From NCBI RefSeq assembly GCF_900129765.1, contig NZ_FQWU01000006.1:124001-188000 (forward strand): a DNA stretch of 64,000 nucleotides. The letters are read 5' to 3'. The stretch is from Massilia sp. CF038 (lineage in GTDB: Bacteria > Pseudomonadota > Gammaproteobacteria > Burkholderiales > Burkholderiaceae_D). This document shows positions 4,658-46,106 of this stretch, piece after piece. Every line of letters starts with the position of its first letter. Positions within the stretch are counted from its first letter, which is position 1. Under the pieces are notes generated by a model. It saw nothing but the letters and a program-made list of their open reading frames with translations, did not search any database and had not been told where the DNA came from. Both the position numbers and the translations under genes were made by a program.

Positions 4658-5275
4658 ATGTCAGACGAGCTCAACGCAGCAGCCCTTGTGCACTTTCATG
4701 ACAGCGCGCTGGCCAGCGCAGGCTGGCCGCAGGCCGGGCCGCGTGCGCCAAGTCACGGACCGTGGCCCTGGATTCACGCCAATCACCGCTGCAACACCTT
4801 GCTCTGGCACGAGGAAGACAAAGCGCGCCGCACCGATGTCGGCGCGCACGAAATCGCGGCCAGCAAGCGCCTGATCGACCGCTACAACCAGGACCGCAAC
4901 AATGCGGTCGAAGCCATCGACGAAGCCATCCTCGATCAGCTGGCCGCCGTCGCCCACGGCGATGGCGCACGCATGAGCAGCGAGACCGCCGGGGCCATGG
5001 TGGACCGGCTTTCCATTCTGGCACTCAAAATCTTTCACATGCGCCTGCAGAGCGCCCGTGCCGAGGCCGGCCCCGCGCACATCGAGGCCTGCACCCGCAA
5101 ACTGCGGCGTCTGCTGGTGCAGCGCCAGGACCTGGCCGCCTGCTTCGAGCAACTGCTGCGCGAGGCGCGCCAGGGGCAGGCTTACTTCAAGGTCTATCTC
5201 CAGTTCAAAATGTACAACGATCCCACCCTGAATCCCTATCTGTACGGTGCGCCGGCGCCGGCTCCGGCCCCATGA
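4658..5275 (+). CDS. DUF4254 domain protein, glycan cluster
   Basis: A 205-residue cytoplasmic protein matching DUF4254, a helical family repeatedly found beside glycosyltransferases. Visible family features are WPWIHANHRCNTLLWHEEDKAR near residues 38-59 and IDRYNQDRNNAVEAIDEAI near 74-92. A proline/alanine-rich tail (GAPAPAPAP) ends the chain. Its stop overlaps the start of the following GT2 gene by four bases (ATGA), which implies translational coupling. The role is unknown; the context says it serves glycan assembly. The ribosome-binding site lies in the hairpin at 4608-4654. Confidence 0.8.
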   Translation: MSDELNAAALVHFHDSALASAGWPQAGPRAPSHGPWPWIHANHRCNTLLWHEEDKARRTDVGAHEIAASKRLIDRYNQDRNNAVEAIDEAILDQLAAVAHGDGARMSSETAGAMVDRLSILALKIFHMRLQSARAEAGPAHIEACTRKLRRLLVQRQDLAACFEQLLREARQGQAYFKVYLQFKMYNDPTLNPYLYGAPAPAPAP

Positions 5276-6084
5276 GCCCGCAGCACGCTCTCGACATCCT
5301 GATACCAACGCGCAATCGCGATGCGGCGCTCGCCGTCACGCTCACGGCATTGTCGGCCCAGGATTTCCGCGACTTTCGCATCATCGTGTCCGACCAGTCC
5401 GATATGCCTGGCACGTTTGCCAATCCCGAAATTCGCGCGGTGCTGCGTTATCTTGCCGCGCGCGGCCTGCGGGTGCTGACACTGAGCCATTTGCCGCGCC
5501 TGGGCATGGCAGAGCAGCGCGCTTTCCTGCTCTCGCACGCACGTGCCCCCGCCTGTTTGTTTCTTGACGACGATGTCATCCTCGAAACCGATCTGGTCGG
5601 CAGGCTGCACCGTGCCTTGCAGCTGCAGCGTTGCGGCTTTGTCGGCAGTGCCCTGCACGGCTTAAGCTATGTTGGCGACCACCGGCCCGAGCAGCAATAC
5701 ATCGAGTTCTGGGACGCCGAAGTGGCACCCGAGCGGCTCGATCCGTCCAGCCCGGGCTGGTCGCGCCACCATTTGCACAGCGCGGCCAATCTGTATCACG
5801 TGCAGTCACGGCTGGCGCTGGAAGGCGCTGCAACGCGGCCGTACAAGGTGGCCTGGGTGGGAGGCTGCGTGATGTTCGATACGCAAAAGTTGCGCGCTGC
5901 AGGCGGCTTCGATTTCTGGCGCGACCTACCTGCCGCGCACTGCGGCGAAGACGTGCTGGCCCAATTGCGCGTCATGGAGCAATTTGGCGGCTGCGGCATT
6001 GTCCCTTCCGGCGCTTATCACATGGAATTGCCCACCACCATCAGCGAACGCCAGGTCGACGCGCCCAAAGTCTTGCACCGATGA
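5272..6084 (+). CDS. family 2 glycosyltransferase
   Basis: A 270-residue GT-A fold transferase that should move a sugar from a nucleotide donor to a glycan or lipid acceptor. The N-terminus LDILIPTRNRDAAL is the usual nucleotide-binding beginning, and FLDDDVILETD (Asp99-101) is the metal-binding DxD region. A later AWVGGCVMFDTQKLRAAGGFD and HCGEDVL match the acceptor side and catalytic base region of GT2 enzymes. There are no membrane segments. The ATG at 5272 overlaps the DUF4254 stop, and its own stop overlaps the next gene by four bases, so the three genes form one unit. Confidence 0.85.
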   Translation: MSPQHALDILIPTRNRDAALAVTLTALSAQDFRDFRIIVSDQSDMPGTFANPEIRAVLRYLAARGLRVLTLSHLPRLGMAEQRAFLLSHARAPACLFLDDDVILETDLVGRLHRALQLQRCGFVGSALHGLSYVGDHRPEQQYIEFWDAEVAPERLDPSSPGWSRHHLHSAANLYHVQSRLALEGAATRPYKVAWVGGCVMFDTQKLRAAGGFDFWRDLPAAHCGEDVLAQLRVMEQFGGCGIVPSGAYHMELPTTISERQVDAPKVLHR

Positions 6085-7145
6085 CGGCGCGCGCGCTCGG
6101 CAAGGTCAGAAAAATCGCGGTCTTTCGGCCGAGCGCGCTGGGCGACTTTATCTTTTGCCTGCCCGCCCTGCATGCCTTGCGTGGCGCCTATCCTGGTGCG
6201 GAAATCGTGTATCTGGGGCAGCGCTGGCATGTGGCATTCCTCGAGCAGCGGCGCGGGCCGGTCGACCGTGTGGCCGTGGTGCCACCCCTGCCCGGCATCG
6301 GCGCGCCAGACGACAGCAGTACGGCGCCGCCAGCGGTGGCATTTTATGAAGCAATGCAGAGCGAACGCTTCGATCTTGCCTTGCAAATGTATGGCGGCGG
6401 ACGCCATGCCAACCCGGTGGTGCAGCGCTTCGAAGCGTGTATGAGCGTCGGCATGCGCACGCCGGATGCGGCGCCGCTGTCGCGCACGCTACCCTATCAG
6501 GGTGCGGTCAACCGCCGTTTGCAGTTGCTGGAAGTGGCGTCCCTGGCAGGAGCGCAGCACTGGCCCATGTCAGCGCGCCTGCACGTCACCGCGGTCGACC
6601 GTGAACTGGCGGCACAGGTGCTGCCCGATCTGGGCAAGCGCGCGCTGGTGCTGTTGCAACCGGGCAGCAACGATGCACGCCGCTGCTGGCCTGCCGCGCG
6701 CTACGCAGCCCTGGCCGACGCTTTGACAGAGCAAGGTGCTTGTGTTGCCATCAATGGCAGTGCGGCTGAGGCGCCCTTGGTGCGTGCCGTGCTGCAAAGC
6801 ATGCGCCATCGAGCGCTCGATTTAAGCGGCAAATTGTCACTGGCGGGGCTATGCGGTTTGTTGCAGCGCTGTAGCATGGTGGTCTCCAACGACACCGGGC
6901 CGCTGCATCTGGCGCTTGAGATCGGCGTTCCATCGGTAGGTATCTACTGGTTTACCAATCTCATCGAATCGGCGCCGCTCAGGCAGGAACACCACCGTGC
7001 TGCCGTTTCGCTGCGTGTGGCCTGCCCCGTCTGTGGGGCTGAAAATCTGGCGCATCGGTGCGAACACGACGTCAGTTTTGTCGCAGATGTGGCGCTGGAA
7101 GAAGTAACGGCGTTGGCAATGGCCTTGTACCGCGACACCGCGTAG
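6081..7145 (+). CDS. family 9 glycosyltransferase (heptosyltransferase-like)
   Basis: A 354-residue GT-B enzyme resembling ADP-heptose:LPS heptosyltransferases. The N-terminal KIAVFRPSALGDFIFCLPAL is the acceptor-side motif, and MVVSNDTGPLHLALEIGVPSVGIY is the donor-binding motif. A cysteine-containing tail (CPVCGAENLAHRCEHDVSF) is typical of one GT9 subgroup. It is clearly paralogous to the GT9 gene at 7376-8413: both contain RFDLALQM.G.G.H.NPV. It starts at the ATG at 6081, overlapping the GT2 stop. The real sugar donor could differ from ADP-heptose, since no heptose pathway genes are near. Confidence 0.85.
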   Translation: MTARALGKVRKIAVFRPSALGDFIFCLPALHALRGAYPGAEIVYLGQRWHVAFLEQRRGPVDRVAVVPPLPGIGAPDDSSTAPPAVAFYEAMQSERFDLALQMYGGGRHANPVVQRFEACMSVGMRTPDAAPLSRTLPYQGAVNRRLQLLEVASLAGAQHWPMSARLHVTAVDRELAAQVLPDLGKRALVLLQPGSNDARRCWPAARYAALADALTEQGACVAINGSAAEAPLVRAVLQSMRHRALDLSGKLSLAGLCGLLQRCSMVVSNDTGPLHLALEIGVPSVGIYWFTNLIESAPLRQEHHRAAVSLRVACPVCGAENLAHRCEHDVSFVADVALEEVTALAMALYRDTA

Positions 7146-7221
7146 TTTGGGCGCGCCAATGCCGACGCGCCATGCAAGGTGCTGCAGATTGGGGGCGGCA
7201 ATTGCATGCGTATCTGGCGGT

Positions 7222-7346
7222 GCTCCGCTGACCAACATCGCCCTCGCGCAGGCGGGGGCCTATTCCACTTCACCAAATTCGGAAACAGGGAATAGGGGCC
7301 TCGCATGCGAGGCGCCCTGCGCGAGGGCGATGTTGGTCAGCGGAGC
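7222..7346. terminator. long perfect palindrome between convergent GT9 genes (probable bidirectional terminator)
   Basis: Arms 7222-7252 and 7316-7346 are perfect inverted copies of 31 bases with a 63-base centre. The element contains repeat copy 1 (7236-7332) and extends it outward by 14 perfectly paired bases. It lies between the stop of the + strand GT9 gene (7145) and the stop of the - strand GT9 gene (7376), where a bidirectional terminator or insulator would be useful. There is no U-tract, so the terminator role is inference. Confidence 0.45.
7236..7332. repeat. intergenic palindrome family, copy 1
   Basis: Starts CATCGCCCTCGCGCAGG and ends with its complement CCTGCGCGAGGGCGATG; the centre contains the family core AATTCGG. 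The right arm carries an extra palindrome CCTCGCATGCGAGG, shared only with copy 2. It sits between convergent genes. Confidence 0.85.
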
Positions 7347-7375
7347 GGGGTCGGATAAGAGAGTCACTCAGTGCT

Positions 7376-8413
7376 TCATCGTTGGCCGCGATCGTGAGCG
7401 CTACTTCCATGGTCGAGCAATTCGCGCGCATGCGCGATCACGTCGGCCACCCGCTCGCCGCCGGGATCCCACAGGCAGCGATGCCTTTTGCGGTCCAGCG
7501 GGGCCCAGCGCGTCATGTCGGCCTTGCTGAAAATGACGACACTGTTCAGGCGCAGCCCGGCCGCAATATGCGAGACACCAGTGTCGTTCGATACCAGCAA
7601 GCGCGCATCCCGCATCAGCGCGGCCATGGCACCGATGGAAATGGGCGCGGCTGCGTCAATGGCCGGGGTGCGCATGCGGCTTGCAACGGCAGCGGTGAAC
7701 GGTGCCTCGCTTGCGGAACCAGTCAGAACGACCTTGAGACCGAACTCCGTCGCGAGGCGGTCGGCGACCTGGGCAAAGCGCATGGGTGGCCAGCATTTTT
7801 CGGGGTCGCGCGCACCTGCGTGGATGCAGATGTAGCTGTCTTTCTGGAGGCCGGACGACAAGCCGCTGGCGCCCAGTTCGCGCTGGTCTGCATCGGTCAG
7901 CGGAAATTCAAGCGCCGTGCCACAATCGCTGGCGCCGAGGCGTTTGCTCAGTTCCAGCAAGCGCAGCGGTTCGGCGCCCTGCTCGGGAAAGGGAATGAAG
8001 AGTTCGCCCACGGCGCCGCGCCGCTCGCCGTAGCCGGCCAGCTTACGCGCGCCGAATGCGCGCGTGACCGGATTGCTGTGCTCACCACTACCGTGCATTT
8101 GCAGCGCCAGGTCGAAACGCCGGGCGCGCATGGCCGCGTAAAAATCTGCCAGCTCTTCCGTGCGCATGGTTTGTTCAGGAAATGCCGCGTGTCCGGGAAA
8201 GGAAATGAACTCATCCACGTACTGGCTGAACCTGGCGACAAATTGCGCCGCCCATGGCAAGCCCACCAGAGCGATGCGCGTGCCTGGCATGGCGTGGCGC
8301 AAAGCGCGCAGAGCGGGAACGGCGCACAGCATGTCCCCCAGTTGCAGCGCACGAAAAATGACAATGCTGGCACTGGTGTGGGTGGGCAGCCAGTATGAAG
8401 CGGTCAGTTGCAT
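7376..8413 (-). CDS. family 9 glycosyltransferase (heptosyltransferase-like)
   Basis: A 345-residue GT-B enzyme, last gene of the leftward set. IVIFRALQLGDMLCAVPALRAL (about residues 17-38) is the N-terminal GT9 motif and LLVSNDTGVSHIAAGLRLNSVVIF the donor-site motif. IHAGARDPEKCWPP marks the start of the C-terminal domain. Unlike its + strand paralogue it lacks the C-terminal cysteine motif and ends shortly after a VADVIAHARELLDHG helix. Its start overlaps the end of the dimethylformamidase-like gene by ten bases, so the two are translationally linked. Acceptor and donor unknown. Confidence 0.85.
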   Translation of the reverse strand: MQLTASYWLPTHTSASIVIFRALQLGDMLCAVPALRALRHAMPGTRIALVGLPWAAQFVARFSQYVDEFISFPGHAAFPEQTMRTEELADFYAAMRARRFDLALQMHGSGEHSNPVTRAFGARKLAGYGERRGAVGELFIPFPEQGAEPLRLLELSKRLGASDCGTALEFPLTDADQRELGASGLSSGLQKDSYICIHAGARDPEKCWPPMRFAQVADRLATEFGLKVVLTGSASEAPFTAAVASRMRTPAIDAAAPISIGAMAALMRDARLLVSNDTGVSHIAAGLRLNSVVIFSKADMTRWAPLDRKRHRCLWDPGGERVADVIAHARELLDHGSSAHDRGQR

Positions 8414-9753
8414 GATGGACTCCTGTGTTCAAGCAGGCGCTGGATGACGTTGTGGGTGATGGTGGACAGGTGCGGGTCTTTGCCGCTGGCCAGGGCCTGC
8501 ACCCAGTCGGTGGTGCCGGCATTGAAGACGGTGCCGCCGGCCGTGAACACGCCCATGGTGGCCGCATGCAGGTCGCCCATCTCTGGGGCGCGCGGTGGGC
8601 GCTCTTGCCAGCGCGCGTCCAGCGCGCAGGCAGCCAGCGGCAGATAGCCTGGCGGCACCCCGCAGCGCGCTGCCGACGGTGCCAGCCTTGCCAGACCGCG
8701 CGCCGGGTCGAAGTGGGCCAGCGGCGCGCCGTCGCATTCGTAGCCGACCACGGGCGGCCAGGTATCGGCGCCCACCGTGTCGCCATGGCCCAGACCGGTT
8801 CCCGCAAACAGCCAGTGCGCCGGTTCGAGCACGGTATAGCCATGCGCGCCGCGCGGCCCATCCCACCAGCCGCCGCCGTGGCGGTAGCTGACGCCGGCCA
8901 GCGCCTCTTCGGGGCGATCGGGCCACCAGTGATCATGCGGCCCGTCGGGTCCGCCTTGATGGCAGACCATGGCCGCGCCCGCGTCCACCAGATGGATGCG
9001 CCACCAGCACAGATTGGCACTGAAGAAGGCGGCGTTGCCGCCGGCGGCGATAAAGCGTTCGACCCCGTCGCGCATGGCCGTGCTCCAGTACTCGTCGTGC
9101 CCTGCACTGATGAGCAAGCGGTAGGCCGTGCACAGGCCGGGATCGTCGTCGATGTCGAGATCGGTGCAAAAGTCGCAGGCATAGCCATGCCTGAGCAGCC
9201 AGGCGATGAAGCGCGCATCCCAGTGCGCAAAACTCTGGCGTGGTGAACTGCGGTCGTAATGGTCGGCAGCGCCGAAGGTGGGGCCGCCAATGCCGATGCC
9301 CGGCCGCTGGAACGACAGGCGCGCGCCTGGCGGGTCAAGCGAGCGGGGCGGCCTGTCGTAGTAGCAGCCGCCACCAGTGTGGTTGTAGGCGTTATAGGTT
9401 GCCAGTGGCAGCTTGTAGAGTAGCGCACTGCCGCCGCCGCGCACCACGAACAGAATGGCGCCGTGCTCTTGCGCCAGGTGCAGCGGCGCCGCCTTGCCAT
9501 CCTCGAGATGCGCCAGGTAGACGCCGCCCGGCCAGGAATGCGGTACCTTGAAGTGGTAGGCGGGCCATTCCCAGTCCAGCGCGGGATCGCGCATGGCATG
9601 CGGTGCGCCGGCGAGCCATGCCGACGTGGCCATTGGCACAAGGCGGCCAGCCCAGCGGTAGATGGCGACCCGGAAGCGCCCCGTGGCCGACACATGCAGG
9701 GCCAGCGCTTCGCCCGGCCAGACGCTGGCTTTGCCTGCGTAACCGAACATCAT
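8404..9753 (-). CDS. N,N-dimethylformamidase large-subunit-like protein
   Basis: A 449-residue protein related to the large (beta) subunit of N,N-dimethylformamidase, an amidohydrolase with a mononuclear iron held by two tyrosines and a carboxylate. The motif GHDEYW (His219, Glu221, Tyr222) matches the segment that supplies the carboxylate, and Tyr120/Tyr123 in LATYNAYNHTGG are candidate tyrosine ligands. The typical WDARFIAWLLRHGYACDFCTDLDID block is at about 178-202. No small subunit gene is next to it. It overlaps the carbamoyltransferase gene by four bases and the GT9 gene by ten. The context suggests action on an amide of a glycan or precursor rather than on free dimethylformamide; that is inference. 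Confidence 0.78.
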   Translation of the reverse strand: MMFGYAGKASVWPGEALALHVSATGRFRVAIYRWAGRLVPMATSAWLAGAPHAMRDPALDWEWPAYHFKVPHSWPGGVYLAHLEDGKAAPLHLAQEHGAILFVVRGGGSALLYKLPLATYNAYNHTGGGCYYDRPPRSLDPPGARLSFQRPGIGIGGPTFGAADHYDRSSPRQSFAHWDARFIAWLLRHGYACDFCTDLDIDDDPGLCTAYRLLISAGHDEYWSTAMRDGVERFIAAGGNAAFFSANLCWWRIHLVDAGAAMVCHQGGPDGPHDHWWPDRPEEALAGVSYRHGGGWWDGPRGAHGYTVLEPAHWLFAGTGLGHGDTVGADTWPPVVGYECDGAPLAHFDPARGLARLAPSAARCGVPPGYLPLAACALDARWQERPPRAPEMGDLHAATMGVFTAGGTVFNAGTTDWVQALASGKDPHLSTITHNVIQRLLEHRSPSCN

Positions 9754-11432
9754 GCGGGCCGATCCGACATGTGCGGTTTGCGGATCAGATATGGCGGCAT
9801 GACCAGCGCATCCATGGGCGTATGCCGGAACGTGTGCAGGGCTTCGGCTGCGGTTTCGACGATCGGTTCGTCCTTGCCGTTGAACGAGGTGTTGAGCAGG
9901 ACCGGAATGCCGCTGCGCTCGTAAAAGGTTTGCAGGAGCCCGCGCAGCAAGGGATCGTCGTGCGGGCCCACGGTTTGCAGGCGGGCACTGCAGTCGACGT
10001 GGGTGACGGCGGCGATGGCCCCGGCAGCGTCAGCCCGGACCGGTGCGGCAAATTGCATGAAGGGCGAGGCGGTGCTGATATCGAAATAGCGCTCCGCATG
10101 CTCGAGCAGGACCACCGGCGCCAGCGGCCGGAACCACTCGCGCTGCTTGACCTGGCTGTTGATGCGCTCGCGCATGGCGGCTGGACGTGGATCGGCCAGA
10201 ATGCTGCGGTGACCGAGCGCACGCGGACCGAATTCGCTGCGGCCCTGGAACAGACCGACGACCTGGCCGTCCTCGATCAGGTCGACAATGCGCGTGCGCA
10301 TTGCGGTTGCCTGGTCGAGGCAGTCGATGCGCAGATCGCGCGCCCCGGCCAGCACCAGATCAATGTCGGCCACGCTTTGTTCGGGGCCCAGGTAGTCGTG
10401 TTCCCAGCGGAAGTGGCAAGGCTGGCCGGCCACTTCGGTCAGACCATACACCGCACAGCCCAGCGCGGTGCCGGCGTCGCTCGGCGCCGGCGGAATGAAC
10501 AGGCGGCGAAAGCCGCTCTCGCGCAGCAAACGCTGGTTGGCCGAGCAGTTCAGTGCCGTGCCGCCGGCAAAGCACAGGTCTTCGGCGCCGCTTTCACGCT
10601 GCAGCCAGCGCGCTACCTTGACCAGCGCATCTTCAAAGGCGCGCTGACCGGCGGCGGCAAGGGCGGCAATGTCGGCAAAGCCGGTGGCGGCCTGCTCGGC
10701 GTAGCGGAAGCGGCCGCGCGCATGCAGCATGGACGTCCAGGCGGCGGGAATGGTGACCTGGCAGCCATCGACCTGCAGCGGCGGCAGCCCCAGTGCAGCG
10801 GGATTGCCATGCGGCGCCAGTCCCATGACCTTGCCCTCGTTGCCGTGGCCCGGGAAAATGGCCTGCGTGAGCAAGAAGTAGAACATGCCAAGACCGACCA
10901 GATGCTGGTCGTCCCGGTCCCACACTTGCTTGGCCAGGCAGTGCACGCGGGCGCGGTCGGCGTGGTAGAACGAAGCGACCTCGCACCAGTGGCCAGGGAC
11001 TGCACTGGCGCCGGTCCAATGTTCGGTGAGGGCGGACACCGCACTGCCCTGCCCGTCGACAATCATGACGGCGGCGCTGGCAAACGGCGATGGATGAAAC
11101 GCGCTGTAGACGTGGGCCAGGTGGTGCGAAATGCGGATGCGCTGCGATTGGCTGGCCATGCGCAGGGACGAGGCGATTTCCTGCTCGTAGACTGCCAGCT
11201 TGTCCTGCTCGGGGTCGGAGGAATAGCATTCGACCAGCACGTCGAGCGGCTGGTCCAGCCCGGGCAGGCGCGGCGCGTAGATGGCGGCCAGGTCGCCGGT
11301 GCGGCCCCAATGGTGTTTTTGGCGCGTCAGGCGCTCCTTCTGGATGGCCCAGGCGAGCTGGGAGCCGTGCATCAGGCAGATGCTGGCGTCTTGCGTGCGG
11401 TTGATTCCCAGTACCAGCGGTGCTGCATTCAT
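9750..11432 (-). CDS. carbamoyltransferase, NodU/CmcH family
   Basis: A 560-residue enzyme that would transfer a carbamoyl group from carbamoyl phosphate, by way of carbamoyl-AMP, to a hydroxyl of a sugar or natural product. The N-terminal half shows LGINRTQDASICL and the metal-site HHLAHVYSAF (His103, His104, His107) followed by VMIVDGQGS, as in the Kae1-like domain. The C-terminal domain has EFGPRALGHRSILADPR near residue 400 and NTSFNGKDEPIVETAAEAL. It is the first gene of the leftward set and overlaps the next by four bases. A carbamoylated glycan is the simplest product; the acceptor is unknown. Confidence 0.88.
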   Translation of the reverse strand: MNAAPLVLGINRTQDASICLMHGSQLAWAIQKERLTRQKHHWGRTGDLAAIYAPRLPGLDQPLDVLVECYSSDPEQDKLAVYEQEIASSLRMASQSQRIRISHHLAHVYSAFHPSPFASAAVMIVDGQGSAVSALTEHWTGASAVPGHWCEVASFYHADRARVHCLAKQVWDRDDQHLVGLGMFYFLLTQAIFPGHGNEGKVMGLAPHGNPAALGLPPLQVDGCQVTIPAAWTSMLHARGRFRYAEQAATGFADIAALAAAGQRAFEDALVKVARWLQRESGAEDLCFAGGTALNCSANQRLLRESGFRRLFIPPAPSDAGTALGCAVYGLTEVAGQPCHFRWEHDYLGPEQSVADIDLVLAGARDLRIDCLDQATAMRTRIVDLIEDGQVVGLFQGRSEFGPRALGHRSILADPRPAAMRERINSQVKQREWFRPLAPVVLLEHAERYFDISTASPFMQFAAPVRADAAGAIAAVTHVDCSARLQTVGPHDDPLLRGLLQTFYERSGIPVLLNTSFNGKDEPIVETAAEALHTFRHTPMDALVMPPYLIRKPHMSDRPA

Positions 11433-11547
11433 GCGCGTTCTCCCGTGTGTGCTTGTTTGAACCGCAACCCGTCAATTAGTTCAGTGCCTGCCAGCTGGCG
11501 CAAAGAACGGTATGATTCTCGAAGAACAATTTCCGAAAGGCCGCAGC

Positions 11548-12360
11548 ATGCTCGAGACGCCCGCCACATTCATTCCCCTGATGGCGCCGCAGGACGACCC
11601 CGACCCGCTCAATTTCGTGTTCCTGGCGGGACAGATGCTGGTGCGCACCGACGATCTTGCGCTGCCGCCCTCCGCGCTGCTGCCCGCACTGGGCGTCGAT
11701 GCGGCCCGGCTGTACCCGGTGGGCAGCCTTGCGGGACGCTATTGCCAGAGCACCTGGTGCGCGCGCGATACGCCCGCCCCGCCCGGCTATGAATGGCGCG
11801 GCATGCGCAGCCTGTTTGGCGCGCACGACGATGGCTTCATGGGTGTGGCCGGACGCGCCAGCCAGATTGCAGACTGGGCCCGCACGCACCAGTTCTGCGG
11901 CGTTTGCGCCACCCCGATGGCGATGCTGCAGGGCGAGCGCTGCTTCAAGTGTCCGGCCTGCGGCATGATGGCGTATCCGCGCATTTCACCCGCCATGATG
12001 GTATTGATCCGCAAGGGCGACAGCGTGTTGCTGGCGATGCACACGGCATCGGCAGCCAAGCGTTTCACGCCTCTGGCCGGCTTTCTGGAAGCAGGTGAAT
12101 CGATCGAAGAAGCGGTCCACCGCGAAGTGTTCGAGGAAGTCGGGTTGCGCGTGCACAATCTGACGTATTTTGCCAGCCAGTCCTGGCCTTTCCCTCATTC
12201 CCTGATGATTGCCTTTACTGCCGATTATCTGGACGGCGACATCCGCATCGACAAGAACGAATTGTCCGAGGCGCGTTGGTTCGGTCCAGGCGATGCATGG
12301 CCCGAGAAGGTGCCCCACATTTCCATTTCAAGCATCCTGGTGGACGCGCACCGGCCTTGA
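11548..12360 (+). CDS. nudC: NAD(+) diphosphatase NudC
   Basis: Nudix hydrolase that splits NADH/NAD to NMN and AMP and can decap NAD-capped RNA. The zinc ribbon is CGVCATP...CFKCPACG, the Nudix box is GFLEAGESIEEAVHREVFEEVGL-type (G-x5-E-x7-REVxEExG), and the NudC signature SQSWPFPHSLM follows it. The ATG at 11548 is chosen because GAAAGG lies just upstream; an ATG at 11512 would add twelve residues. The gene is monocistronic and divergent from the carbamoyltransferase gene. Length (270) fits the family. Confidence 0.93.
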   Translation: MLETPATFIPLMAPQDDPDPLNFVFLAGQMLVRTDDLALPPSALLPALGVDAARLYPVGSLAGRYCQSTWCARDTPAPPGYEWRGMRSLFGAHDDGFMGVAGRASQIADWARTHQFCGVCATPMAMLQGERCFKCPACGMMAYPRISPAMMVLIRKGDSVLLAMHTASAAKRFTPLAGFLEAGESIEEAVHREVFEEVGLRVHNLTYFASQSWPFPHSLMIAFTADYLDGDIRIDKNELSEARWFGPGDAWPEKVPHISISSILVDAHRP

Positions 12361-25320: not shown

Positions 25321-25394
25321 TGGAGGCGGATGTTGGAATCGAACCAACTTCCCCAGCTTTGCAAGCTGGTGCATTGCCATTTTGCTACTCCGCC
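25321..25394 (-). tRNA. tRNA-Cys (anticodon GCA)
   Basis: Read on the - strand: acceptor GGCGGAG, D-arm GCA/TGC, anticodon stem CCAGC/GCTGG with loop TTGCAAA (anticodon GCA), T-arm GTTGG-TTCGATT-CCAAC, acceptor ATCCGCC, discriminator T and an encoded CCA. GCA and U73 are the cysteine identity elements. The seventh acceptor pair is G-A, a mismatch; the other six pair normally. Confidence 0.9.
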
Positions 25395-29667: not shown

Positions 29668-30471
29668 TCATATGCCTTGAAATATTCGCCACTGCTGATT
29701 TAGGGCAGCCAAGGCTGGTCTGCATATTTGCTCAACTGGCTGGAAAGGAACCGTTCCATGCATTGCTCGGTAGGCATCGTCAACGATACTCTGAGCCACA
29801 GTAACCTGCATGCGCTCAGGGTCAATCGCAAGCAGTCCAAGATCCCATAAAGTATGAATGTCTGCGCGTAGAAGAAGGCCGTTGGAAGTCAGGTTTGTTG
29901 CAGCTCCCAGATAAGGTGTGATATGGGCTGCTTCAAGTGTGGGAAGTACTGCGCAGCCACTAAACGCGCATTTCGCTGCATATGCCGTAATGAGGCGGGC
30001 ACGAAATTTCGATTGGCCTTGTCGCTGTACCACTTGCCGAAGCACCTTCGCGCGGGCATCAATTTGATCCGTAGGATCGAACGCCGGATACGTACGATTT
30101 TCTACCAGTATTTCCGCTAGCTCGTTTGACCAGGGACCCCGTGGAGCGTGGGCCGGTTCGAAAATCGTCTCGAGAAATGCGGCATATTTTTGCAAGGCGG
30201 CACTATACATTTGATGGCCGGTCTTGTTACGGCTCGCGAATTCTGGGGTATCGGCGACTCTGTCGGCGATCTCGGCAAATTCATTGAGATCAAAAATCTC
30301 GTCCAGTGCGCTCTCTGTTAACCTATAGGTGTTTGCCCAAGTTGTGAGTGGCCCTCTAAGCGCCCCGGCGTATTTTTTCACTGTCGACGCGGACATTCCA
30401 TCCGCATAGAGCCACTCTTCAAAATCCATATCCAGACCTTGTTCAATATCTTTTGGATACGATAACATCAA
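29668..30471 (-). CDS. HNH endonuclease
   Basis: A 267-residue nuclease. The C-terminal HNH domain contains CAFSGCAV (Cys168, Cys173), LEAAHITPYLG with His183, and NGLLLRADIHTLWDLGLLAID with Asn197 and His206. The N-terminal half (ADGMSASTVKKYAGALRGPL) is helical and may recognise DNA or a partner, as in restriction-type HNH proteins. No methylase or partner gene is adjacent. Codon use is more AT-rich than the neighbours, consistent with recent acquisition. A methylation-dependent restriction role is possible; it is not shown. Confidence 0.82.
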   Translation of the reverse strand: MMLSYPKDIEQGLDMDFEEWLYADGMSASTVKKYAGALRGPLTTWANTYRLTESALDEIFDLNEFAEIADRVADTPEFASRNKTGHQMYSAALQKYAAFLETIFEPAHAPRGPWSNELAEILVENRTYPAFDPTDQIDARAKVLRQVVQRQGQSKFRARLITAYAAKCAFSGCAVLPTLEAAHITPYLGAATNLTSNGLLLRADIHTLWDLGLLAIDPERMQVTVAQSIVDDAYRAMHGTVPFQPVEQICRPALAALNQQWRIFQGI

Positions 30472-33252: not shown

Positions 33253-35265
33253 TCACTGAAGCCGAATCGCGGTGTCAAAGATCCAGGTACGCCGGATCTC
33301 GATTACGTCATACTGCCGTGCCAACGCAGGTGGGAACGCCCCATACGGCGCCTGACTGGCCACGACATTTCGGATGGCCTCATCAATCGCCGGCACCCCG
33401 CTCGACACCACGAACGTGATTTTTTCCACGGTACCGTCAGCACGAACCGCCACGGTGACAGTCGGCGCCACATGGCGTTGCCTGACGATGTTCCGGATCA
33501 TGTCCAGAGTCATGTTCATCTCGATCTTGCGGCTCATGGTTTCTGCATAGAGCACCAGATCCGCATTGGGATCAGCACGGCCGAGCAGCCAGCCTCGGCG
33601 CAAACCGCTGACCGTCGGCAGCAGTGACTTGGACGGCGTATTCGCCGCATCGCGCTGGGCGGCTTCTTCGTTCAGCTGTTTGCCGATGGCGCGCAGACGC
33701 TCTTCGCGGTCCGCTTCCTGCTTGGCGCGATCCTGCTGTGCCTGGTCTTGCTTTGCGCGCTCCTGGCGGGCAGCCTCCTGTTTTGCGGCTTCCTGACGCG
33801 CGACTTCCTGTCTTGCCGCCTCCCGGCGCACAGTTTCCTGATTCTGGGCGTCCTGACGCGCGGCCTCTTGCTTTGCTGCTTCCTGACGCGCCGCTTCCTG
33901 TTTTGCTGCCTCTCGGCGTGCTGACTCTTGATTCTGTGCGTCCTGCCGCGCTGCCTCTTGCCGAGCGGCTTCCTGTCGTGCTGTTTCTTGTCGTGCTGCT
34001 TCGCGGCGCACTGCATCCTGGCGCGCGGCTTCCTGTCTGGCCGCTTCCTGGCGCGCTATTTCTTGCCGCGCAGCTTCCTGGCGCGCAGCCTCTTGCTTGG
34101 CTGCTTCACGTCGTGCAGCTTCTTGATTCAGTGCGTCCTGTCTTGCCGCCTCTTGCCTTGCAGTTTCTTGACGGGTAGCTTCACGGCGAACAGCATCCTG
34201 ACGCGCGGCCTCTTGCTTGGCTGCTTCCTGCCGGGCTAACTCCTGCTTCAATACTTCTTGGCGTGCCGCTTCCTGCTCGAGCGCCTTTTGTTTCGCGTCA
34301 GCGAGTGCTTGTTCCCGGCGGGCCGTTTCAAGTTGCGCTTGCTTTGCCTGCTCCTGTCGCATGGTTTCTTTGCGCGCAGCGTCGAGACGCGCAGTCTCGA
34401 CCCGCTCCTGCTCTGTGCGCGCTGCATCTTGCAGTGCTTTCTCGGCCCGTCTGGCTTGCTCTTGTCGTTGCGCTTCCTGCTGCAGATTTTCCAGGCGTGC
34501 CGACTCTCTACGTTCAGATTCGACTCGTGCCGCTTCGTTCATGGCGGCTTGTTCCGCGCGCGCCGTCTCCTGTCGCAGTTGTTCTTGCCGCGCCACCTCG
34601 CGCTGTGCGGCCAAGGCCGTTTCTGCCAGACGCTGCCGGTCCGCCATTTCCTTTTCTTGTTCCACCCGGGCTTGCTCCAGCGCCCGCGCCCTGGTTTGCT
34701 GCTCCAATTTCTTCTGTGCCGCGTCGCCCGCATCCGCAGGAACGGGCATCTCGCTTGCCTGAACAGGAATATCCTGTTCGATATTGTTCGCCGGCGCCCG
34801 GACCTTTGGCGCATTCGGGGCGACAGGCAGATTCACATCTGGACGTTTGTTCGCGGTCGTGACTGGTTCGACGGCAGCCGCAGGGGCACTCGGCGGCAAT
34901 GGAGCCTGAACAGGCACTGGTGCTGGGACGAGGTGCGCGGCGGCCGCCTTAGGTTCAGTGGCGGGAACCTTGGCCGACGGCGCATCAAACGGGCGCGATA
35001 CCGGTGGCTGCGCGATCTTGGCCGGCTCTGCAGGAGAAATCTCGGCTTGAACCGGGGGAGGCGTTGGCGATACTGCAGGCGCAAGAAGAATACGCAAGTC
35101 ACTTGCGCCCAGGCGCTTTTCTTTCCATGGGAATTGCAAACCGGGCAGCCCGAAAGTCTGACCGCCAATCGCCAGACTTAAAAGCAGCGCGTGCATGAGC
35201 AGCGAAATCACCAACGCCGTGCTCATTCGTCTTGGGTCGGCCGGCATGTAAAGCGCCGAGCTCAA
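33253..35265 (-). CDS. TolA/TonB-like protein with very long Ala/Arg/Gln/Glu repeat
   Basis: A 670-residue envelope-spanning protein. One N-terminal membrane helix (ALVISLLMHALLLSLAIGG) is followed by a proline/alanine-rich linker (about 60-185). A charged region of roughly 350 residues follows, made of five-residue units such as EAARQ, EAAKQ and DAVRR, expected to be a single long helix or coiled coil. The last about 110 residues are a TonB C-terminal-like domain (VAPTVTVAVRADGTVEKITFVVSSGVPAIDEAI). The layout matches TolA: anchor, long periplasmic helix, binding domain. No tolQ, tolR or tolB is nearby, so it is probably a paralogue rather than the main TolA. Confidence 0.82.
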   Translation of the reverse strand: MSSALYMPADPRRMSTALVISLLMHALLLSLAIGGQTFGLPGLQFPWKEKRLGASDLRILLAPAVSPTPPPVQAEISPAEPAKIAQPPVSRPFDAPSAKVPATEPKAAAAHLVPAPVPVQAPLPPSAPAAAVEPVTTANKRPDVNLPVAPNAPKVRAPANNIEQDIPVQASEMPVPADAGDAAQKKLEQQTRARALEQARVEQEKEMADRQRLAETALAAQREVARQEQLRQETARAEQAAMNEAARVESERRESARLENLQQEAQRQEQARRAEKALQDAARTEQERVETARLDAARKETMRQEQAKQAQLETARREQALADAKQKALEQEAARQEVLKQELARQEAAKQEAARQDAVRREATRQETARQEAARQDALNQEAARREAAKQEAARQEAARQEIARQEAARQEAARQDAVRREAARQETARQEAARQEAARQDAQNQESARREAAKQEAARQEAAKQEAARQDAQNQETVRREAARQEVARQEAAKQEAARQERAKQDQAQQDRAKQEADREERLRAIGKQLNEEAAQRDAANTPSKSLLPTVSGLRRGWLLGRADPNADLVLYAETMSRKIEMNMTLDMIRNIVRQRHVAPTVTVAVRADGTVEKITFVVSSGVPAIDEAIRNVVASQAPYGAFPPALARQYDVIEIRRTWIFDTAIRLQ
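33700..34290 (-). repeat. 15-base tandem repeats inside the TolA-like gene
   Basis: The DNA repeats an imperfect 15-base unit encoding E-A-A-R/K-Q dozens of times in a row. Blocks of several units recur nearly identically (for example around 33775-33860 and 33860-33960), so internal duplications are evident. The repeat is protein-coding and in frame; it is not a CRISPR array. Confidence 0.85.
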
Positions 35266-37717: not shown

Positions 37718-40353
<2,636 letters not shown>

Positions 40354-40359
40354 ATAAGT

Positions 40360-40377
40360 GGCGGAGCATGCTCCGCC
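40360..40377. other. 18-base perfect palindrome after dnaN
   Basis: GGCGGAGCATGCTCCGCC is a perfect zero-spacer palindrome eight bases beyond the dnaN stop and next to repeat copy 2. It may contribute to 3'-end structure of the dnaN message. Confidence 0.5.
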
Positions 40378-40384
40378 CCTATTT

Positions 40385-41491
40385 TTAAATACGCATCGGC
40401 ATCACGACGTACTTGAAGTCGGCGTTATCCGGAATCGAAATCAGCGCCGACGAGTTCGAGTCGCCCAACGAGATGTTGATCTGGTCGCACTTCAGGTTGT
40501 TCAGCACGTCAAGCAGATAGGTCACGTTGAAGCCGATGTCCACGCTGTCGCCACCGTAGTCGATCTCGAGTTCTTCAACCGCTTCTTCCTGGTCGGCATT
40601 GGTCGAGCTGATCTTCATGCTGCCTGGGGTGATGATGCAGCGCACGCCCTTGAATTTGTCGCTCGTCATGATCGCGGCGCGCTGCAGGGAACGCAGCAGT
40701 TCGTCGCGGCCAATCGTGAAGTCGTTCTTGTAACCCTTTGGAATCACGCGCGTGTAGTCAGGGAACTTGCCTTCCACCAGCTTGGAGACCAGCTCGATGT
40801 CGGCAAACGTCAGTTTGACCTGGGATGCGGAAATATCCAGCTGCACGGTCTCGTCGCTTTCTTCCAGCAGACGCTGCAGTTCAATGATGGTCTTGCGCGG
40901 AATGATGACTTCCTGGCGCGTGAATTCCTGTTCGGTTTCAACCTGGCAGAAGGCAAGGCGGTGGCCGTCAGTTGCCACGGCAATCACGTTGCGGCCGTCC
41001 AGCACCAGCAGCAGACCGTTCAGGTAATAGCGAATGTCTTGCTGCGCCATCGAGAAGTGCACCATGTTGAACAGGTGCTTCAAGGTCTTTTGCGGCAGCG
41101 TGACGGTGGCGTTGTAGGTGTCAGCGACGGCAACCGTCGGGAACTCTTCGGCCGCCAGGGTTTGCAGGGCGAAGCGCGACTTGCCGGTCTGGACCGTCAG
41201 GCGCTTGTTTTCCAGCTTCATCGTCACGTCGCCCGATTCCGGCAGCGCGCGCAGGATGTCGAGCAGCTTGCGCGCCGCGACGGTGGTACCGGCAACTTCG
41301 GCACCCGAGCCGATGTTGGCGTGCGTGGTGATCTGCACTTCGGTGTCGGTTGAAAGGAACGAGACGCTTTCGCCGTCCTTGCGGATGAGGATATTGGCCA
41401 GAATCGGCATAGTGTGCCGACGCTCGACAATACCGCTCACGATCTGCAGTGGCCGGAGAAGGGTATCTCGGGTGGTTTTGACCAATTGCAT
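40385..41491 (-). CDS. dnaN: DNA polymerase III beta clamp
   Basis: The 368-residue sliding clamp that tethers polymerase to DNA. The start MQLVKTTRDTLLRPLQIVSGIVERRHTMPILANI is typical, and the protein ends in the conserved YVVMPMRI. Length and three-domain repeat layout fit the family. It lies 179 bases downstream of dnaA, with repeat copy 3 in the gap, and 174 bases upstream of gyrB, with copy 2 in the gap. Confidence 0.98.
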   Translation of the reverse strand: MQLVKTTRDTLLRPLQIVSGIVERRHTMPILANILIRKDGESVSFLSTDTEVQITTHANIGSGAEVAGTTVAARKLLDILRALPESGDVTMKLENKRLTVQTGKSRFALQTLAAEEFPTVAVADTYNATVTLPQKTLKHLFNMVHFSMAQQDIRYYLNGLLLVLDGRNVIAVATDGHRLAFCQVETEQEFTRQEVIIPRKTIIELQRLLEESDETVQLDISASQVKLTFADIELVSKLVEGKFPDYTRVIPKGYKNDFTIGRDELLRSLQRAAIMTSDKFKGVRCIITPGSMKISSTNADQEEAVEELEIDYGGDSVDIGFNVTYLLDVLNNLKCDQINISLGDSNSSALISIPDNADFKYVVMPMRI

Positions 41492-41577
41492 AGTAATCCT
41501 CGGTAGGTTGTCAGAATGTTACTTATAAGCTTGCTTCAAACACTATATTTTGCCAGAAATTTTTGAGCCTACCTCTA

Positions 41578-41662
41578 CATCGCCCTCGCGAAGGCGGGGG
41601 CCTATACCACTGCGCCGAAGTTGTTCAGCATGGCATGGCCCCCCGCCTTCGCGAGGGCGATG
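41578..41662. repeat. intergenic palindrome family, copy 3
   Basis: CATCGCCCTCGCGAAGG ... CCTTCGCGAGGGCGATG. The variable AAGG of the left arm is matched by CCTT on the right, so the arm is fully paired. It starts nine bases beyond the dnaA stop, in the dnaA-dnaN gap. Confidence 0.85.
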
Positions 41663-41670
41663 TGAGCGAC

Positions 41671-43074
41671 TCAACCTTTCAAGGTCTGTTCCAGCACGTG
41701 CAGCTCGTGGTTGCACTCGGCATTCTTGGTACGGTCCAGCGCAATCTTGCGCACTGCGTGCAGCACGGTCGTATGGTCGCGTCCGCCAAACAGCTCGCCA
41801 ATTTCCGGCAAGCTCTTCTGCGTCAACTCCTTGGCCAGATACATCGCAATCTGGCGTGGGCGCGCAATATTGGCGGGCCGGCGCTTCGAATACATGTCCG
41901 CCACCTTGATGCTGAAGAAGTCCGCCACTGTCTTCTGGATGTTCTCAACAGAAATCTGGCGGTTCTGCACTGACAGCAAATCTTTCAGCGCTTCTTTCAC
42001 CACATCGATGGTGATGTCCTTGCCGTGGAAGCGCGAATACGCCAGGATCTTGCGCAGCGCGCCTTCCAGTTCGCGCACGTTCGAACGCAGGTGCTTGGCC
42101 ACAAAGAAGGCCACGTCATCGGAGAAGGTCACGCCTTCCGACTGCGCCTTTTTCAGCAGAATCGCCACCCGCATTTCCAGCTCCGGCGGCTCGATGGCCA
42201 CCGTCAGGCCGGAATCGAAACGCGAGATCAGGCGGTCGTCCATGCCCGTGATTTCTTTGGGATAGGTATCGCTGGTGATGATGATTTGCTTCTTCGCGGC
42301 AATCAGTGCCTCGAACGCATAGAAGAACTCTTCCTGGGTACGGCTTTTGCCGCCAAAGAATTGAATATCATCGATCAGGAGCATGTCCAGCGAATGATAG
42401 TAATGCTTGAAATCGTCGAAACCTTTGCGCTGGTACGCTGTCACAACATCACGCACATACTGCTCGGCGTGGATGTAGCGAATGCGCGCGCCTGGCTGGT
42501 CTGCCATCACCTGGTTGCCGATCGCATGGATCAAGTGGGTTTTGCCCAGGCCCACGCCACCGTAGAAGAACAGCGGGTTGTACGACACGCCCGGGTTGTT
42601 GGCAACCTGAATCGCGGCAGCGCGCGCCAGCTGGTTGGCCTTACCGGTCACAAAGCTGTCAAAGGTCAGCTCGGTGTTCACGCGGCTTTGTTCACGCCGG
42701 GGCGGATTGCCGATGTTGAACATCTCTGGCGTACCTGGCTGCGCTTCGTTGCTGTTGCCGTTGTTGATGGTGCCTGGCATGGGGCCGTCGTTCGGGGCCG
42801 GATGGGGCGCCACCGCTTTTTTCGGCAGGGCATTCTTGGGGTCGAGCACGAACTGCACTTCGGTCGGCGCTTCCCAGAACTGGCAGGCCAGCTCGGTAAT
42901 GCGGGTGGCGAATTGCGTCTTGACCCAGTCCAGCTTGAATCGATTGGGCGCAGCGATGCGCAGCTTGCCGTCTTCGTAATCGAGAGCGACCAGCGGTTTG
43001 ATCCACGCACTGAATTGTTGCGGTGTCAGCTCCAGTTCCAACTGCGCGGAACAGGTCTGCCAGAAATTTTCCAT
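41671..43074 (-). CDS. dnaA: chromosomal replication initiator DnaA
   Basis: A 467-residue AAA+ initiator that binds DnaA boxes and opens oriC. Domain I starts [25 protein letters not shown]. Walker A is [15 protein letters not shown] and Walker [10 protein letters not shown]. Domain IV carries the signature [16 protein letters not shown] Pro/Asn-rich domain II linker (about 88-130) is visible. It is transcribed leftward with dnaN and gyrB downstream; rpmH diverges on the other side. Confidence 0.99.
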
Positions 43075-43164
43075 GAATCGTCTGTCTGAATAAGGTGTGG
43101 AGGGGCGGTTCGATGATAGCGGTGCGCCACACGTAACACGCTATTCTACCCGCCATGGGCCGAG

Positions 43165-43173
43165 TTATCCACA
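43165..43173 (+). promoter_or_regulatory. DnaA box
   Basis: TTATCCACA matches the consensus exactly and lies 91 bases upstream of the dnaA start. It may serve autoregulation of dnaA, origin function, or both. Confidence 0.75.
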
Positions 43174-43234
43174 GGCACGTGCGGTATTTTGGGGGTGGGA
43201 GAGAGGAATTAATTGATTAAGTGGCAAGCTCAAC

Positions 43235-43311
43235 CGTGGTATAGGTCCCCGCCTTCGCGAGGACGATGTTTTGTCAGTACATCGCCCTCGCGCAGGCGGG
43301 GGCCTATAGCA
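43235..43311. repeat. intergenic palindrome family, copy 4 (outward-facing half elements)
   Basis: A right arm of GTCC type (43235-43268, ending GCGAGGACGATG) is followed after eleven bases by a left arm of GCCC type (43280-43311, starting CATCGCCCTCGCGCAGG). The order is inverted compared with the other copies and the two halves are of different arm types, so they probably come from two elements. Confidence 0.75.
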
Positions 43312-43349
43312 TCCGTGCACAGAGAGACTCCTCTAATCACCCCAATACC

Positions 43350-43379
43350 TTGACAGCGGGACTCAAAATCGTGTCTAAT
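43350..43379 (+). promoter_or_regulatory. sigma-70 promoter of rpmH-rnpA
   Basis: TTGACA (43350-43355), 18 bases, then TCTAAT (43374-43379). It is 131 bases upstream of the rpmH start and well placed for the rpmH-rnpA-yidD-yidC unit. Confidence 0.65.
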
Positions 43380-43509
43380 TCAGGGTTCCCCGCCCGTACT
43401 CCGTGCAAATAGGTCTTTTACGGCTTGTTGGTTTGGCTTAGCGGGTAAAAGAGACTGACGGGACGTCAGACCCGATTTTGCATTTAATTTTGCTTTAAGC
43501 GAGACCACC

Positions 43510-43644
43510 ATGAAACGTACTTACCAACCTTCCGTCGTTCGTCGCAAGCGCACGCACGGCTTCCGCGCACGTATGGCTACCCGTGGCGGTCGCGATGTGC
43601 TCAACGCACGCCGCGCCAAGGGTCGCAAACGCCTGGCTGTATAA
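43510..43644 (+). CDS. rpmH: 50S ribosomal protein L34
   Basis: A 44-residue basic ribosomal protein: [18 protein letters not shown] ... [20 protein letters not shown], ending RLAV. It is part of the large subunit. The sequence is diagnostic for L34 and length is exact for the family. It is the first gene rightward of the origin region and is followed 32 bases later by rnpA, with which it is normally co-transcribed. Confidence 0.98.
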
Positions 43645-43676
43645 GTCTGGCACTTACTGCTGGATCGCGGTTGGCT

Positions 43677-44069
43677 ATGACTAGCGAAGACTCACAAGAC
43701 TTCGCGCGCGTTCGGCGTATCGTTAAAACGGATGAATTTTCATCCGTTTTTCGTTTGCGCCCTGCCCAAAAGTCGGCGCACTTTGTGCTCTACACACGCT
43801 CGAATGAATTGCCGCATGCGCGGCTGGGCGTCGTGGTGGCCAAGCGCTTTGCCCCGCGCGCAGTCACGCGCAACACGATCAAGCGCGTCACCCGCGAACT
43901 GTTCCGCTGTGCCAAGCTGCCCGCGATGGATTGCATCGTGCGTCTGGCGCGGCCGGTCAACAGCAAGGACGGGCCGGCCACGACGGCCGCGCTCAAGGCC
44001 GCCCTGCGCGCTGAAATTGCGCGCCTGTTCTCTTCGCAGGCCGGGCGACCGCCGAAAGCGGCGTCGTGA
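43677..44069 (+). CDS. rnpA: ribonuclease P protein component
   Basis: The 130-residue protein subunit of RNase P, which helps the RNA subunit remove tRNA 5' leaders. The start region KTDEFSSVFRLRPAQKS and the signature RLGVVVAKRFAPRAVTRNTIKRVTRELFR are present. The ATG at 43677 is chosen; a TTG two codons upstream is possible. Its stop overlaps the GTG start of yidD by four bases. Confidence 0.95.
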   Translation: MTSEDSQDFARVRRIVKTDEFSSVFRLRPAQKSAHFVLYTRSNELPHARLGVVVAKRFAPRAVTRNTIKRVTRELFRCAKLPAMDCIVRLARPVNSKDGPATTAALKAALRAEIARLFSSQAGRPPKAAS

Positions 44070-44326: not shown

Positions 44327-44337
44327 CCAATACCTCA

Positions 44338-46011: not shown

Positions 46012-46019
46012 TGCCACAC

Positions 46020-46104
46020 CATCGCCCTCGCGGAGGCGGGGGCCCATAGCACGCTGAACGAATTCGGTAACGTGCTATAGGCCCCCGCCTCCGCGAGGGC
46101 GACG
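46020..46104. repeat. intergenic palindrome family, copy 5
   Basis: CATCGCCCTCGCGGAGG ... CCTCCGCGAGGGCGACG with centre GAATTCGGTAACG. The variable GGAGG in the left arm is matched by CCTCC on the right. It begins nine bases after the yidC stop. Confidence 0.85.
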
Positions 46105-46106
46105 GT

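Follow-up and report, generated by a model that had tools for sequence, protein, structure and literature searches.

Described systems and the locus

Carbamoylated heptose is known from the lipopolysaccharide (LPS) of Pseudomonas, where HepII of the inner core bears a carbamoyl group connected with a putative carbamoyltransferase gene, wapO (partial text of PMC8005017). Among class III carbamoyltransferases, GdmN holds its iron through H133, H137, D156 and D333 and has H27 as the general-base histidine, the H27N variant having lost all activity (PMC9633730, from the part available). In dimethylformamidase, E521 is an iron ligand, and both E521A and H519A are inactive (PMC7686228, available part). 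A link between DUF4254 and RfaF has been noted in flavobacteria (PMC9425974, available part). Members of all these families meet in a 64,000-nucleotide stretch of Massilia sp. CF038 (contig NZ_FQWU01000006.1, positions 124,001 to 188,000; hereafter the window), where a DUF4254 protein, a family 2 glycosyltransferase (GT2) and two heptosyltransferase-family proteins (GT9a and GT9b) lie together with a dimethylformamidase-like amidohydrolase (DMF) and a class III-type carbamoyltransferase (CARB). This cluster consists of two older gene sets joined together and not of one six-gene unit: module A, formed by DUF4254, GT2, GT9a and GT9b, and module B, formed by CARB and DMF. With moderate confidence, we read it as an accessory cytosolic glycan cassette, probably using ADP-heptose and distinct from the ordinary LPS core, to which a tailoring pair has been added.

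The DUF4254 gene (PF14063; 4658..5275, + strand, 205 amino acids, 180.6 bits) is followed in the same direction by GT2 (PF00535; 5272..6084, 270 amino acids, 42.6 bits) and GT9a (PF01075; 6081..7145, 354 amino acids, 93.3 bits), each junction being an ATGA overlap. Facing them on the - strand are GT9b (PF01075; 7376..8413, 345 amino acids, 88.2 bits), DMF (PF20254; 8404..9753, 449 amino acids, 231.4 bits), which overlaps GT9b by 10 bases, and CARB (9750..11432, 560 amino acids; PF16861, 220.9 bits, and PF02543, 100.5 bits), which overlaps DMF by 4 bases in the open reading frame (ORF) calls. All six proteins exceed the Pfam gathering scores (22 bits for PF01075 and 27 bits for PF20254), and the six genes are real. 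An earlier note on this DNA had given the same ORFs, coordinates and overlaps, all reproduced here, and had found no described pathway to match; the open-access literature, to which our searches were confined, likewise yielded no description of the six-family combination and no paper joining dimethylformamidase with a carbamoyltransferase or with a glycosyltransferase gene cluster.

Conservation of the two gene sets

The cluster proteins were searched in 195 genomes of the host's own family, and the compared loci carry gene calls from a simple ORF picker, with some wrong starts and ORFs. DUF4254 was matched in 31 of these genomes, strongly in 29 and weakly in two. GT9b was matched in 169, of which 24, at E<=1e-98, hold orthologues; read from the match rows, 23 of the 24 have DUF4254 on the other strand no more than 4 kb away, and the genome of the remaining one (G056) lacks DUF4254. 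Module A is complete in 19 of the 24: the window, 12 among 28 fetched family loci, and six found later. In the 28 loci, to which some genomes contribute two, gene presence was scored at 80% coverage: 12 hold the full module A, four all six genes (L053-L056), 17 CARB and nine DMF, the last always with CARB, while the six other module A loci carry the four genes with CARB and DMF absent. In the incomplete loci, GT9a is short or in two frames (L158, L165), GT2 and GT9a are reduced or absent (L164, L162), or GT9b and CARB are the only ones of the six present (L166). GT9-like genes also follow DUF4254 in G020, G051, G010 and G035; in G034, the 12 kb read at DUF4254 gave no GT9b-like match. Module A, with DUF4254, GT2 and GT9a converging on GT9b, is thus named as the conserved core, and since its order and orientation are kept in other genera, the cluster is more than a chance arrangement.

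The locus is marked in many related genomes by a NUDIX hydrolase with a zinc ribbon (NudC-type; 11512..12360, + strand), which forms the right-hand flank and lies outside the system. Beside this gene, graded states are found: all six genes, a DMF remnant (L062), DMF absent (L168), CARB in pieces (L165, L164), GT9b with CARB (L166), CARB only (L167), and both CARB and DMF absent (L158, L159, L169, L243-L247).

DMF was matched in 24 of the 195 genomes, ten of which, including the window's, have full-length copies of at least 56% identity; two others hold a remnant or split pieces (G139, G151) and 12 only distant relatives. The single TGA flagged in two matches (G011, G128) falls where the match ends and is simply the stop codon of the gene. 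CARB was matched in 60 genomes, 18 of them with full-length copies of at least 63% identity (type A), together with partial copies in G151, G018 and G091; the remaining matches are weaker or of a more distant type. All ten intact DMF orthologues adjoin CARB, five at the module A locus and five elsewhere (L051, L052, L057, L058, L059), and the same adjacency also occurs in Noviherbaspirillum autotrophicum (L031), a Candidatus Eremiobacterota metagenome-assembled genome (L032) and Nonomuraea gerenzanensis. CARB and DMF travel as a pair. Besides, 16 of the 18 genomes with full-length type-A CARB also carry DUF4254 (hypergeometric P 8e-14, a descriptive value that ignores kinship), and in L166 and L168 CARB is an immediate neighbour of GT9b, no DMF intervening. 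At E<=1e-120, CARB was found in four of 399 genomes of the order, G614 being the sole one outside the family.

A single conserved six-gene operon was considered and rejected, as all six genes are held by five of the 195 family genomes only. The earlier note had treated the two facing triplets as units; despite the shared direction of GT9b, DMF and CARB, GT9b belongs with DUF4254, GT2 and GT9a, as seen by its place beside DUF4254 in 23 of 24 genomes and by the gene order in B. multivorans described below. Its proposed check for co-occurrence of the six families was borne out for modules A and B separately, each being conserved, but not for the six together. A general separation of the triplets had been taken there as evidence against the proposal, and this is partly what was found, because the six stand together in so few genomes.

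Relatives in other bacteria

In the plasmid collection, seven records match DUF4254, two of them B. multivorans plasmids at 55% identity. B. multivorans NZ_CP020399 carries, in one direction, GT9b (50.9%), a DUF4254::GT2 fusion (55% and 62%, respectively) and GT9a (47.7%). The fused protein has 586 amino acids and carries the GT2 domain; no other observation points as clearly to a joint action of DUF4254 and GT2. In Parabacteroides, a GT9 and a gene annotated as 'LPS kinase InaA family' follow DUF4254. Among viral contigs, nine pattern matches to DUF4254 were obtained and none was confirmed; against solved structures, its best match had E 0.45. A structure predicted from the DUF4254 sequence alone reached a predicted local distance difference test value of 50.

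GT2 was matched in four records of the plasmid collection: the two of B. multivorans, Nonomuraea gerenzanensis (52.7%) and Arthrobacter (48.5%), where no other module genes were recognised beside it from the ORF starts. In Nonomuraea, GT2 is followed by a GT9 that is 41.7% identical to GT9a and falls in the GT9a clade of the tree (100/99). An HldE-like gene lies divergently beside these two genes; its adenylyltransferase domain scores 201.7 bits against a cut-off of 181.5, and its kinase and full-length models stay below their cut-offs. Nonomuraea CARB (51.8%, with an NRTQD loop) and DMF (38.6%) are convergent and lie about 40 kb from the GT2-GT9a genes in the same 11.85-Mb record.

More distant carbamoyltransferases, 35-45% identical to CARB, form clusters that we label type B, no published name having been met in the literature searches. 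According to the match rows, some 20 family genomes have them next to a GT9 that shares about 50% identity with GT9b. The regions read (L153/L154, L155, L156 and L157) hold further GT9, GT4, GT2 and ABC-transporter genes, and three of the four also hold a GmhB-like phosphatase and an SDR. For L157 and two genes of L032, names such as GmhB-like, SDR and GT4 come from hidden Markov model (HMM) scans; those in L032-L039 and L214-L228 come from tblastn, and those in L153-L156 and L181 from inspection of ORF starts by eye. In the tree, the GT9 beside the type B carbamoyltransferase of the family genomes falls in the sister clade of GT9b (98/95). Streptomyces CA-256286 has a row of CARB-GT-HAD-GT9-GT-GT-SIS-rfaE2-GT9 genes in one direction, whose proteins share 31-63% identity with type B partners; reading its SIS and HAD proteins as 'GmhA' and 'GmhB' is our own interpretation, the HAD being 36% identical to the GmhB-like protein of L157.

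The Eremiobacterota group has DMF in 17 of 148 genomes, and the DMF loci of all 17 were read. CARB lies near DMF in four: L032, where DMF heads a type B-like cluster and CARB, GT2, a GmhB-like gene and GT9 follow; L221 and L222, where the same four genes lie within 4 kb of DMF; and L251, which has a DMF fragment at the contig start. Two more show other type B genes near DMF, L224, whose contig ends before any CARB, and L033, with SDR, GT9 and GT4.

Some observations stand beside these clusters. The Streptomyces CA-256286 plasmid region (L239:2381-14811) comprises SIS, rfaE2, HAD, two GT9s, five other glycosyltransferases, an epimerase and the carbamoyltransferase, and CsbD, STAS and GAF-ANTAR genes lie near this heptose-glycan set of a Gram-positive bacterium. 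The host's own contig C2 (L181:8257-14794) carries a type B-like cluster of GT9, SDR, GT4, GT-like and ABC genes with no carbamoyltransferase, named partly by eye.

The GT9 pair and heptose

In a tree of 26 rows, GT9a and GT9b form two separate clades, joined at 90/83, each grouping with its own relatives at 100/99 (those of B. multivorans and Nonomuraea in the case of GT9a). The separation of the clades indicates an old duplication and not a local one. A recent local duplication of the GT9 genes was therefore rejected; the paralogy claimed by the earlier note holds, as an old, non-local event. Neither clade includes WaaC or WaaF, whose branches are long and whose placement at the base is weakly supported (70/74).

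Both proteins belong to the GT9 family by PF01075. When scored against the NCBIfam models for the LPS heptosyltransferases WaaC/WaaF/WaaQ (TIGR02193, TIGR02195 and TIGR02201, with equivalog cut-offs of 185.3, 134.6 and 170.2 bits), GT9a reaches 71.7, 69.2 and 57.6 bits and GT9b 81.8, 55.2 and 62.6 bits, all below the cut-offs. Meanwhile, WaaC (304.6 bits), WaaA (581.2), GmhB (240.2), WaaF (403.3) and MsbA (712.2) of the host pass theirs on contig C2, and the cluster is on contig C7. The candidate that the cluster genes are ordinary LPS core genes was rejected on these grounds, the GT9s being below the equivalog cut-offs and the waa genes lying on another contig.

The sugar handled by module A is probably heptose, with ADP-heptose as donor. 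This is suggested by the HldE-like gene beside the GT2-GT9a pair of Nonomuraea, by the ADP-heptose genes of Streptomyces that adjoin a related carbamoyltransferase and GT9s, and by the GmhB-like and GT9 genes found with CARB and GT2 near DMF in L032, L221 and L222. An ADP-heptose supply exists in the host genome judging from its genes, and contig C6 holds an HldE-type adenylyltransferase of 178.4 bits, just below the cut-off of 181.5. Since parts of the cassette occur in Gram-positive bacteria, which have no outer membrane, the usual site of such sugars, it is not tied to LPS.

Predicted chemistry of the tailoring pair

CARB contains both the Carbam_trans_N and Carbam_trans_C domains of class III carbamoyltransferases, and its H103, H107, D126 and D319 align in HMMER with the GdmN iron ligands. 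The general-base histidine is missing: the loop at this site is one residue shorter in type-A CARB, and Q14 replaces the histidine in the window. In 21 type-A proteins (the 18 full-length family copies, L031, Nonomuraea and G614), this position holds 19 Gln, one Glu, one Arg and no His, the loop having been located through its NR.D pattern itself, found once in each of the 21 loci. L221 and L222 are not in the alignment, as their coordinates gave no full open frame. In the copy with Glu (L167), the alignment also shows one of the iron-ligand aspartates to be missing, and the copy with Arg (L062) adjoins a DMF remnant, and thus both may be decaying. By comparison, all six type B carbamoyltransferases read keep the histidine. 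From the alignment, its loss means either changed chemistry or loss of function, and changed chemistry is favoured because the glutamine is conserved. In phage records, 141 match carbamoyltransferase, and in the ten of the 141 that were listed the identity to CARB is 28-29%; such proteins are annotated in cyanophages, for example S-CAM1 and S-SSM7.

DMF keeps the residues of the dimethylformamidase iron site (Tyr, Tyr and Glu) and its catalytic histidine. H219 and E221 align in HMMER with H519 and E521 of the Paracoccus enzyme, and Y79 and Y123 would correspond to its Y399 and Y440, a pairing drawn from the spacing (44 versus 41 residues) and from invariance. Y79, Y123, H219 and E221 are all invariant in 30 of 30 aligned relatives and in a comparison of eight proteins, including those of Nonomuraea and four from the Eremiobacterota group. 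The structure model (predicted local distance difference test 85.9) has as its nine best Foldseek matches N-acetyl-(R)-beta-phenylalanine acylase and dimethylformamidase, with E from 9e-21 to 1.5e-19 (1.2e-19 against 6lvb). DMF is likely an active amide hydrolase according to the model and the retained residues; a relative without an active site was considered and rejected, since the active-site residues are invariant.

A DMF relative was also observed on a Streptomyces microflavus plasmid (L230:10832-17215), where a GT4 gene overlaps it and a nucleotide sugar dehydrogenase, an epimerase and another GT4 follow. This region adjoins YcaO, HEXXH, P450, methyltransferase and cyclodipeptide synthase genes and looks like a natural-product cluster using a DMF-like enzyme.

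Proposed function and alternative explanations

In the proposed scheme, module A would build a short oligosaccharide: GT2 would transfer a sugar, assisted by DUF4254 as a partner or acceptor-handling subunit, and GT9a and GT9b would add heptose from the cell's ADP-heptose pool. CARB would convert carbamoyl phosphate and ATP into carbamoyl-AMP, from which the glycan, or the building block for it, would receive its carbamoyl group. DMF would hydrolyse an amide of this molecule, the likeliest reaction being removal of an N-acyl group from an amino sugar and a less likely one removal of the carbamate. The heptose donor, the glycan as acceptor of both tailoring enzymes, the order of the steps, the role of DUF4254 and the export route are inferred. 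None of the six proteins has a strongly hydrophobic stretch (the best 19-residue mean is 1.67), thus assembly is probably cytosolic. The compact system for glycan assembly with carbamoylation and amide chemistry suggested by the earlier note is retained in its gene content and in its separation from the LPS core, and abandoned as a single six-gene unit. A bolder version, which we advance tentatively and consider unlikely, is that CARB and DMF form a novel pair of tailoring enzymes for an undescribed non-LPS ADP-heptose glycoconjugate of Gram-negative and Gram-positive bacteria, in which DMF frees an amine and the His-less CARB makes a ureido sugar.

The cluster could instead decorate the LPS outer core, the two GT9s and GT2 extending the core and CARB carbamoylating a core heptose, the role supposed for WapO in Pseudomonas. 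GT9 being the family of LPS heptosyltransferases, the carbamoylated HepII, the flavobacterial link of DUF4254 with RfaF, the GT9 and InaA-family neighbours of DUF4254 in Parabacteroides and the presence of LPS genes in the one cluster-bearing family genome tested all agree with it. Nevertheless, the position outside the host's LPS core loci and the GT9 scores below the LPS equivalogs argue against such a role, as do the GT2-GT9a and CARB-DMF genes of the Gram-positive Nonomuraea and the Streptomyces carbamoyltransferase with ADP-heptose genes, so we regard it as rather unlikely, although it is the foremost competitor. Somewhat less credit still, less than to the ureido-sugar version above, is given to two unrelated units, a module A that produces a heptoglycan and a CARB-DMF pair whose substrate is some other small molecule, possibly a diffusible one. 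The pair stands apart from module A in half of the ten family genomes, in N. autotrophicum and in Nonomuraea, G614 has CARB alone, and the S. microflavus DMF relative has GT4 and sugar-nucleotide genes around it, with adjoining YcaO, P450 and methyltransferase genes, all as expected of separate units; against this, DUF4254 accompanies CARB in 16 of 18 genomes, CARB directly adjoins GT9b in two loci, the GT9 beside type B carbamoyltransferases is the sister of GT9b, and the Nonomuraea gene pairs are 40 kb apart in a record of 11.85 Mb. Finally, it is very improbable that the two enzymes are writer and eraser, CARB adding a carbamate that DMF hydrolyses: every intact DMF of the family has CARB as its neighbour, and a carbamate resembles an amide, but DMF relatives occur in many loci with no recognised CARB, eight of 18 family genomes have CARB with no intact DMF, and both enzymes with a solved structure of this fold take their names from cleaving amides (dimethylformamide and N-acetyl-beta-phenylalanine).

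Several results weigh against the cassette that we favour. All six genes are found together in five family genomes only (the window and L053-L056), the CARB-DMF pair lies away from module A in five of the ten genomes with intact DMF, and eight of the 18 CARB genomes have no intact DMF. In four of these eight (G094, G125, G148, G170), CARB is within 530 bases of the contig end, so the missing DMF may be an assembly effect. G614 has a type-A CARB, and no other gene of the six was found in the 10 kb examined there. Nonomuraea is absent from the seven plasmid-collection records matching DUF4254, GT9a and GT9b both match a single gene there, leaving one such GT9 only, and no glycosyltransferase was recognised from the ORF starts beside its CARB-DMF pair. 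The remaining 11 of the 17 Eremiobacterota-group DMF loci are without the type B set, some having single SDR, GT2, GT4 or ABC matches. As to function, GT9 membership is no proof of an ADP-heptose donor, and CARB without its general-base histidine could be a carbamoyltransferase of another kind than O-carbamoylating, or inactive. The suggested N-deacylase role of DMF rests on fold and active site, and in the Foldseek comparison (TM 0.61-0.72 by query length, root-mean-square deviation 5-15 A) only the domains agree. Moreover, an acceptor, a lipid carrier and an exporter are not encoded in the cluster.

Surroundings of the locus

Reading by eye the ORF starts outside the cluster, without an HMM scan of every ORF, we saw no genes for glycan export or for the LPS core elsewhere in the window, in agreement with the earlier note, which had found LPS-core, flippase and polymerase genes missing nearby. 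Between 4200 and 11800, the promoter scan gave one promoter-like site against 1.1 in shuffles, and the terminator scan nine terminator-like sites against 6.3 (standard deviation 2.9).

The cluster lies about 30 kb from an apparent chromosomal dnaA-dnaN-gyrB region, where gyrB, dnaN, dnaA, rnpA, yidC and mnmE-like genes were read by eye from ORF starts (37718-47550). A long imperfect tandem array with periods of 15, 30, 60 and 90 bases (33746-34230) is contained in the ORF 33253-35265 on the - strand. The ORF 29668-30471 (- strand, 267 amino acids) has a third-position GC of 0.47, compared with mostly 0.6-0.8 in its neighbours; its start resembles a phage-type integrase, and a tRNA-Cys (25321-25394) is 4 kb off.

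Comparison with known systems

Should the favoured reading hold, the combination of ADP-heptose chemistry and carbamoylation extends beyond LPS cores, and the cassette would be present in several phyla. DUF4254 would gain a testable role as a glycosyltransferase partner, and a carbamoyltransferase subfamily without the catalytic histidine would point to a different acceptor chemistry.

Compared to the solved class III carbamoyltransferases (GdmN, TobZ and decarbamoylnovobiocin carbamoyltransferase), CARB shares both domains and, with GdmN, the aligned iron ligands His, His, Asp and Asp; the characterised relatives have the general-base histidine, in contrast to none of the 21 type-A proteins. 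DMF resembles the large subunit of Paracoccus dimethylformamidase and N-acetyl-(R)-beta-phenylalanine acylase in domain fold, and aligns with the former at H219 and E221. However, it has 449 and not 775 amino acids and is found with a carbamoyltransferase and glycosyltransferases, and the cluster has no small-subunit gene, unlike the two-subunit enzyme with its 775-residue large chain. The type B clusters have in common with the window a carbamoyltransferase beside GT9s and GT2, and differ in usually having a GmhB-like phosphatase and GT4s, with an ABC transporter in family genomes and SIS and rfaE2 in Streptomyces; DUF4254 was seen in none of those read.

The WaaC, WaaF and WapO system of Pseudomonas, as described in the part of PMC8005017 available, is alike in combining heptosyltransferases with a carbamoyltransferase and in placing the carbamoyl on heptose. 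A system of that type would have its carbamoyltransferase gene inside the LPS core cluster, whereas the window's cluster is outside the LPS core loci (C7 versus C2) and adds DUF4254, GT2 and an amidohydrolase; WapO was compared by description. Furthermore, the window's GT9s fall in other clades, and parts of the cluster are found in Gram-positive bacteria. Heptosyltransferases with a carbamoyltransferase are thus already known; here they occur with a chemically odd carbamoyltransferase subfamily and in a distribution that does not fit LPS alone.

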